From a virus: a stretch of 46,337 bases of DNA. How positions within the stretch are numbered: position 1 is the stretch's first letter; every line of letters begins with the position of its first letter. The notes under the pieces were generated by a model. It was not told where the DNA came from. It did not search any database and saw only the letters and a program-made list of their open reading frames with translations. Below are positions 11,919 to 12,714 of the stretch, piece after piece. The position numbers and the translations under genes are program-made. The DNA is taken from positions 1-46,337 of the IMG/VR virus record IMGVR_UViG_3300037475_000228. One strand, given 5' to 3'.

Positions 11919-12004
11919 AAAAAAAAGGGATCCATACCTAGATCCCCTAATTAAAATAACTACTTTTTTTTCTCCACAGAAAAAGAAAGGCTTTAGCTAT
12001 GCTT
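11919..12004 (-). ncRNA. Small RNA, copy A of a three-member family
   Basis: On the minus strand: -35 TTGCAA (12035-12030), a 17-base spacer, -10 TATATA (12012-12007), start near 12000-12004. The RNA, about 85 bases, contains CCUUUCU, a hairpin with loop UGUGGA (11985-11963), the single-stranded AGUAGUU, and a terminator: GGGATC stem arms (11946-11941 with 11932-11927), an 8-base loop, then eight U (11926-11919). From promoter to hairpin it is nearly identical to copy B. No open frame is conserved among the copies. It probably acts as an antisense or regulatory RNA. Confidence 0.75.
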
Positions 12005-12241
12005 GATATATAGTCAAAAACTTCATTTGTTGCAAGTTAAAATCCTTTAAACCTTAATAAGAGATTTACATGTTAACGGTTTAGCTGTTTTCGTTTACAA
12101 AGAGTTGAAGATGTAAACAAAATTACTCACTATACTAAGTAACGCTACTCAATAAAAATTAATGAAATTTCTCTTTTTTTGAAAATATGTGGCAAGAATA
12201 TCTTGCGATTTAACAAATTCTGGGAATATACTAGAAATTAC

Positions 12242-12328
12242 AAAAAAAAGAGACCCAGTACCTTGGATCTCTTTTGAAATAACTACTTTTTTTTCTCCAC
12301 AGAAAAAGAAAGGCTTTTGTTATGTCTT
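12242..12328 (-). ncRNA. Small RNA, copy B
   Basis: Same design as copy A: TTGCAA (12359-12354), 17-base spacer, TATATA (12336-12331), start near 12324-12328. The body CCUUUCU, the UGUGGA-loop hairpin and AGUAGUU match copy A almost exactly. The terminator has different bases: GAGAUCC (12271-12265) pairs with GGGUCUC (12256-12250) around an 8-base loop and is followed by eight U. The stem sequence is replaced while pairing is kept, which is strong evidence for selection on RNA. Confidence 0.78.
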
Positions 12329-12534
12329 GATATATAGTCAAAAACTTCATTTGTTGCAAGTTAAAATTTACTTCAGCATTCGCCAAATAAGTCAACAGTA
12401 ATTTTATATATATCAAGAGTTTTCTATGAATACAGCATTAATAAAAGTTTCAAATTCTACTAATCTCCACAAGACAACTTTCAATAAATTTTCTTGTCAG
12501 AAGAAAAAAAATAGCTATAAAATGGCAATTATAG

Positions 12535-12623
12535 AAAAAGGGTTCACCCTGGTAAGTGAACCCCTTAAAAAAATCAGAACTACTTTTTGCCACCACGCAA
12601 GAGAAAGGAGCTCGTTATGTCTT
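12535..12623 (-). ncRNA. Small RNA, copy C (most diverged)
   Basis: Promoter TTGCAA (12654-12649), 17-base spacer, TAAATA (12631-12626). The RNA starts like copy B (AAGACAUAAC), then has GCUCCUUUCU, a hairpin CUCUUGC-GUGGUG-GCAAAAAG (12603-12583), AGUAGUU and a perfect 8-bp terminator GGGTTCAC/GTGAACCC with an 8-base loop and a U run. In the first hairpin a U-A pair of copies A and B is a G-C pair here, a compensatory change. The loop keeps GUGG. Confidence 0.75.
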
Positions 12624-12714
12624 AATATTTAGCAAAACAAATATCTTATTGCAAGTGGAATTCTGCAAGCAATATTCACCCAAAAGTTTAAATCCTAAAT
12701 ATTGAGACACGACA

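Follow-up and report, generated by a model that had tools for sequence, protein, structure and literature searches.

The DNA analysed here, referred to throughout as the window, is a virus record of 46 kb with a GC content of 35%. It carries terminase and portal genes together with genes encoding RecT, YqaJ, SSB, and a serine recombinase. The closest source of the window SSB was Ca. Finniella inopinata (75%), and on this basis we infer that the host of the phage lies near the Paracaedibacteraceae. A prophage form of the phage was sought through portal matches in 42 genomes of this presumed host order and none was found, nor were parA/parB partition genes found among the window proteins scanned. 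The serine recombinase (6171-6857, minus strand) had a Mpi-type DNA invertase as its closest model, with a score below the model cut-off, and two phage proteins without family matches (7987-8730 and 9794-10414) have N-termini that resemble signal peptides.

The replication genes of the window form an operon of two genes (Table 1). The product of the first aligned with the N-terminal domain of the initiator family with an hhalign probability of 99, and all of its matches in the 42 host-order genomes fell inside full-length initiators. The second gene encodes an initiator with homologues in 22 of these 42 Paracaedibacteraceae-like genomes (best E 1.1e-58). These homologues lie on plasmid-type contigs, many of them beside parA/parB, and one is carried by the circular 15,074-bp plasmid NZ_CP008942 of Ca. 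Paracaedibacter acanthamoebae. The window initiator itself had no NCBIfam match and was not recognised as RepC. Protein scans of viral contigs with the products of 13094, 8732, and 12715 found no relatives, and the portal and terminase relatives of the window phage had no rep neighbour. Up to nine initiator-family matches were present in a single host-order genome (for example G039), a number that prompts the question how so many replicons under antisense control could escape incompatibility.

Table 1. Features of the small-RNA array and of the adjoining replication operon (positions in the window)
Feature	Position	Strand	Remarks
RNA A, ~87 nt	11917-12003	-	terminator GGGAUC/GAUCCC
Promoter of RNA A	12008-12036	-	CTTGCA-N17-CTATAT
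RNA B, ~87 nt	12240-12326	-	terminator GAGAUCC/GGGUCUC
Inverted repeat of module B equivalent to the leader repeat	12325-12418	+	arms 12325-12336 and 12407-12418
Promoter of RNA B	12332-12360	-	CTTGCA-N17-CTATAT
Candidate plus-strand promoter	12493-12520	+	CTTGTC-N16-CTATAA, consensus match only
RNA C, ~88 nt	12534-12621	-	5' hairpin with GUGG loop; terminator GGGUUCAC/GUGAACCC
Candidate two-codon leader ORF	12602-12625	+	AGAAAGGAG-6-ATG TCT TAA; speculative; faces the 5' end of RNA C
Hairpin of the rep operon mRNA leader	12614-12713	+	arms 12614-12632 and 12695-12713
Promoter of RNA C	12627-12655	-	CTTGCA-N17-CTAAAT
Winged-helix protein, 125 aa	12715-13092	+	stand-alone paralogue of the initiator N-terminal domain
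Replication initiator, 372 aa	13094-14212	+	homologous to Paracaedibacteraceae-type plasmid initiators

Directly upstream of this operon, as an earlier sequence-only reading had pointed out, the minus strand holds three units (11917-12662), named A, B, and C here. Every unit combines an alphaproteobacterial-type promoter, a 5' hairpin, and an intrinsic terminator, and the predicted RNAs are ~86-88 nt each. The sequence-only reading had proposed these three small-RNA genes with promoters of the form TTGCAA-17-TATATA/TAAATA. The promoters were rightly identified but are better read one base earlier, as CTTGCA-N17-CTATAT/CTAAAT, which brings them close to the alphaproteobacterial sigma-70 consensus CTTGAC-N17-CTATAT (PMC2873474). 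The region has three such sites, whereas 500 shuffles had 0.12 on average and never more than 1, and the promoters of A and B ranked within the four top-scoring sites of the whole window. The combined hairpin pattern was likewise found three times with none expected. A and B are nearly identical save for their terminators (100% over 42 nt of promoter, 94% over 51 nt of RNA body). C is a diverged homologue, 67% identical at the promoter, and its alignment to A/B over promoter and RNA was equalled by none of 1000 shuffles. The stretches upstream of A, B, and C showed no significant homology to one another.

The predicted RNAs fold better than shuffled sequences, with z of about -2.6 to -3.1. Their terminators have paired stems as first described, but with effective loops of 4-8 nt and not always 8. 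Considering that only three sequences can be compared within the array, A and B differ by at least one fully compensated pair in the terminator, and the top of the 5' hairpin of C shows two compensated pairs (U-A to C-G and C-G to G-C) beside a retained GUGG loop, in place of the single U-A to G-C exchange reported before. Covariation in the three terminators alone would not settle a regulatory function because any terminator keeps its stem whatever its purpose. The loops of C (UUACC) and of A/B (GGUA) are complementary over only 4 bp. The array was also considered as protein-coding DNA and rejected as such, there being, as previously noted, no open frame common to the units, and the base composition being non-coding. 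Exact-pattern scans for the hairpin of A-C in viral and genome collections returned nothing, a covariance model built from A and B (R2) found no copies in the 42 host-order genomes, and no match to A-C reached a gathering threshold in Rfam (15), the matches listed up to E 10 lying far below the thresholds of their families. The existence of three structured units on the minus strand is confirmed. Beyond the array, a very stable hairpin with a T run was seen at 11683-11725 (minus strand, z -6.3). Its loop side carries GUACCUU, which is exactly complementary to the AAGGUAC of the RNA B terminator loop. This hairpin is possibly a bidirectional terminator or an RNA partner.

RNA C is exactly antisense to the presumed rep operon leader, and is the only copy that sits cis-antisense to this operon. 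The leaders of the homologous plasmid-type rep genes were searched for this layout, using 33 rep loci with upstream DNA; paralogues are included in this sample and the loci are not independent. In a strict scan, both strands between -300 and +60 relative to the rep start were searched for an alpha-type promoter with a terminator 40-110 nt behind it; an opposite-strand unit was found in 22/33 leaders and a same-strand unit in 2/33. Control stretches further upstream gave 0/182 on either strand, although these include coding DNA, which makes the same-strand count the fairer reference. When the promoter rules were relaxed, a short opposite-strand RNA was found in 27/33 leaders (that of L131 is doubtful), and in several of the remaining ones a terminator hairpin was visible by eye. 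Individual RNAs of the relatives fold with z mostly between -2 and -7. The terminator stem in 21 aligned relatives was paired in 92.6% of cells and showed double changes at 8/11 pairs. Its covariation score was 0.598 against 0.258 for shuffled alignments, and neither any of 500 shuffles nor a slid register scored as high. The plasmid rep-leader RNAs had no Rfam match, and no paper on antisense RNA in Paracaedibacter-type plasmids was found in the open-access literature. The family is apparently undescribed in Rfam 15 and in the literature searched, in agreement with the earlier remark that no described family has this layout. On a Rickettsiales plasmid of Ca. Bandiella numerosa (L153, 2160-2253, minus strand), whose rep gene is distantly related, inspection by eye of the DNA upstream of that gene showed a CTTGCA promoter as well as a hairpin with a T run after it; the R3 model described below gives it no score.

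The window array and the plasmid family were compared through R3, a covariance model made from the RNAs of the relatives with no window sequence in it. R3 recovered four leaders that had been excluded from its building (L120, L135, L138, and L146), and its 13 hits in the 42 genomes were all at rep-leader positions, mostly of training members. Searched against the window up to E 10, it had a sole match, which was copy C on the minus strand; A and B were unmatched. This match is weak (16.6 bits, E 1.5), its score alone is not significant, and the informative part is its position, copy C making up ~0.1% of the positions searched. The best R3 match on L155, another phage contig whose initiator is related, also fell on the minus strand upstream of the initiator (E 0.11). 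This contig seems to carry just one unit. On the same contig, iteron-like direct repeats (ACAAAGTATAACAAAG) lie at 3657-3769, between the initiator and the minus-strand terminator. With start codons picked by their Shine-Dalgarno match, the distance from the antisense 5' end to the start codon was 94 nt in C and 64-93 nt in 17/24 relatives; in the others it was 136-138 nt (six) or 301 nt (one outlier). By this distance, and with an alpha-type promoter, an RNA in the 60-95 nt range of the family, and a terminator on the opposite strand, copy C occupies the position of the family, with A and B further upstream. Primary-sequence similarity between A/B/C and individual plasmid RNAs was mostly at shuffle level, a divergence that could be expected if the RNAs diverge under selection by incompatibility. 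Tandem copies were seen in none of the relatives examined, the family being single-copy outside the window.

The leader of the rep operon has a structure of its own. An inverted repeat of 15 pairs (18 in the fold) forms a hairpin whose 5' arm shares bases with the -10 and start of RNA C and whose 3' arm contains the GAGA Shine-Dalgarno of gene 12715, which is thereby buried. The hairpin has an energy of -25.9 kcal/mol compared with -11.9 (sd 2.7) for shuffles, 0/300 of which were as stable. An equivalent repeat is kept in module B, where two double changes, both compensatory, distinguish it from that of module C, and for this reason B looks like a copied control module and not merely a copied RNA gene. 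In module A the second arm has been lost. The candidate plus-strand promoter would make a leader that runs through the complement of RNA C into 12715. The candidate two-codon ORF in this leader is a speculative lead only; Met-Ser-stop is found at the corresponding site in two plasmid relatives (L116 and L126) and is absent from most.

These observations favor a model in which the phage carries a plasmid-type replicon and the array is its copy-number control module in triplicate, with C as a cis-antisense copy-number RNA and A and B as extra copies. We consider this model probable. What sequence comparison supports is the existence of three units, the conserved antisense position, and the covariation in homologous replicons; we infer the transcription of the RNAs and of the leader mRNA, the negative sign of the effect, and the role of A and B. 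The sequence-only reading had offered copy-number control by antisense RNA as one option, which the short opposite-strand RNA in the leaders of most homologous plasmid-type rep genes now supports. RNA C, being complementary to the leader of the mRNA for 12715 and the initiator, would be made constitutively in an amount proportional to the number of genome copies, and its hairpin loops would pair with the nascent leader and limit initiator synthesis. RNAs A and B, whose modules arose by duplication, would probably work on this leader in trans, using the shared segments CCUUUCU, GUGG, and AAAAAGUAGUU, or else provide extra dosage.

That RNA C controls the initiator operon can be proposed with good confidence. 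The sign of this control is less directly indicated. In repABC ctRNA control, antisense binding shifts the leader to a closed form. When the antisense target was blocked computationally, the accessibility of the start site became lower in 14/24 relatives and higher in one, a drop consistent with antisense binding that shifts the leader to the closed form. A leader copy of the antisense 5' motif, detected at 5% in 13/27 relatives, about half of them, could be the competing strand; since not all members have it, it was not counted among the defining features of the family, and it was not detectable in the window. The accessibility calculation for the window pointed the opposite way, with a rise from 0.22 to 0.55 at the start site, so that repression by start-site closure is not predicted for the phage leader and the negative sign of control rests mainly on analogy.

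One alternative is that the RNAs are trans regulators of other phage or host mRNAs and that their proximity to rep is incidental. Alphaproteobacterial AbcR and cuckoo-type sRNAs bind Shine-Dalgarno regions via pyrimidine-rich stretches, and C has CUCCUUUCU and A/B have CCUUUCU, both anti-Shine-Dalgarno-like. The near invariance of the 5' hairpin between A and B would fit such a role, and tandem sRNA copies are known in alphaproteobacteria, with AbcR1/AbcR2 as precedent (PMC8844928). Against this, the opposite-strand position is conserved in most homologous rep leaders, no Rfam sRNA family matched at gathering score, and among the plus-strand regions of the phage none pairs with A/B more strongly than the rep leader. 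An unconstrained duplex scan was computed without accessibility and ranked with A and B's own sites left out; the best plus-strand partner of A and B was the complement of C (-57 and -48 kcal/mol), the next plus-strand sites reached about -45 and -43 kcal/mol, and B had a minus-strand site of -47.5; apart from the rep leader, the scan for other phage targets was not discriminating. We regard this trans-regulator reading as unlikely. The scan is compatible with a possible trans action of A/B on the rep leader, although the duplex signal would follow in part from homology. It is also conceivable, but distinctly unlikely, that A and B are a bank of diverged modules that target the rep leaders of competing plasmids of the same family. 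If true, this would amount to an RNA-based incompatibility or superinfection weapon in hosts with up to nine such replicons.

Alternatively, the inverted repeats might be DNA operators at which a protein, perhaps the winged helix encoded by 12715, binds CTAWATATYRAGACA sites, with the RNAs as by-products of regulated promoters. The motif does occur at the -10/start of both B and C, with a further occurrence immediately ahead of 12715, and the first gene of the operon encodes a winged-helix protein. However, the differences between the arms of B and those of C are compensated (the two double changes), as expected for pairing and not for two copies of one protein site, A has no second arm, and the stability of the C hairpin is far beyond that of shuffles. 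The antisense RNA is moreover kept in the relatives, and an operator function appears very unlikely. That the leftward RNAs are replication primers or origin-activating transcription near an origin is highly improbable: the array adjoins the replication genes, and a primer role was at one time suggested for the lambda OOP RNA, whose promoter still influences replication (PMC12197685), but strong terminators end all three RNAs, the relatives have a covarying terminator at the same place, and there are no iterons and no clear skew switch at the array.

If the array is a copy-number control module, it can be set beside known systems. The ctRNA of repABC replicons (RepE/IncA/inc-alpha) is a ~50-nt antisense RNA opposite the leader of the initiator gene, with a terminator-capable stem-loop, beside partition genes (PMC6090056). 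RNA C resembles it in being antisense to the leader of the initiator operon. The ctRNA, however, lies between repB and repC, which the window array does not; there is no repA-repB-repC operon in the window and its initiator is not a recognisable RepC. The array furthermore consists of three tandem copies and resides in a phage, and no ctRNA family of Rfam matches it up to E 10. In CopA/CopT-tap of plasmid R1 (IncFII), an antisense RNA limits RepA translation and a short leader ORF precedes repA (PMC5883639). The window likewise has an antisense RNA and a candidate short leader ORF, but its initiator is unrelated, no Rfam CopA match and no RepA/tap genes were found, and the candidate two-codon ORF is not conserved across the plasmid relatives. 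In phage lambda, OOP is a short leftward RNA with a terminator beside the O replication gene. This layout is shared with the array, but OOP is antisense to cII (its 3' end), single copy, and unrelated to a plasmid replicon, and the strand opposite A-C holds no coding-like gene. Among the extrachromosomal mycobacteriophages, which are replicated in the manner of plasmids, some depend on a noncoding RNA near parABS (PMC7157519). There the RNA was proposed as the initiator, whereas the window phage has a protein initiator and an RNA antisense to its leader; their RNA also lies near parABS, while none of the partition genes was found among the window proteins scanned. By the tests run, the array would function like plasmid antisense copy-number control, yet is a member of none of the known systems compared.

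Control by antisense RNA is classical; what is new here is the RNA family itself, its occurrence in a phage, and its presence there in three copies. The results point to an apparently undescribed family of antisense RNAs for the replicons of a large, mostly uncultured group of protist-dwelling bacteria, with a covariance signal and a named circular plasmid (NZ_CP008942) as a test case, where the predicted RNA would be a minus-strand transcript of 60-70 nt at 5532-5600. A plasmid control system appears to have passed to a phage and to have been multiplied there to three copies, a hint that this phage may be maintained in plasmid form. It also makes incompatibility through antisense RNA, between phage and plasmids, open to direct tests.
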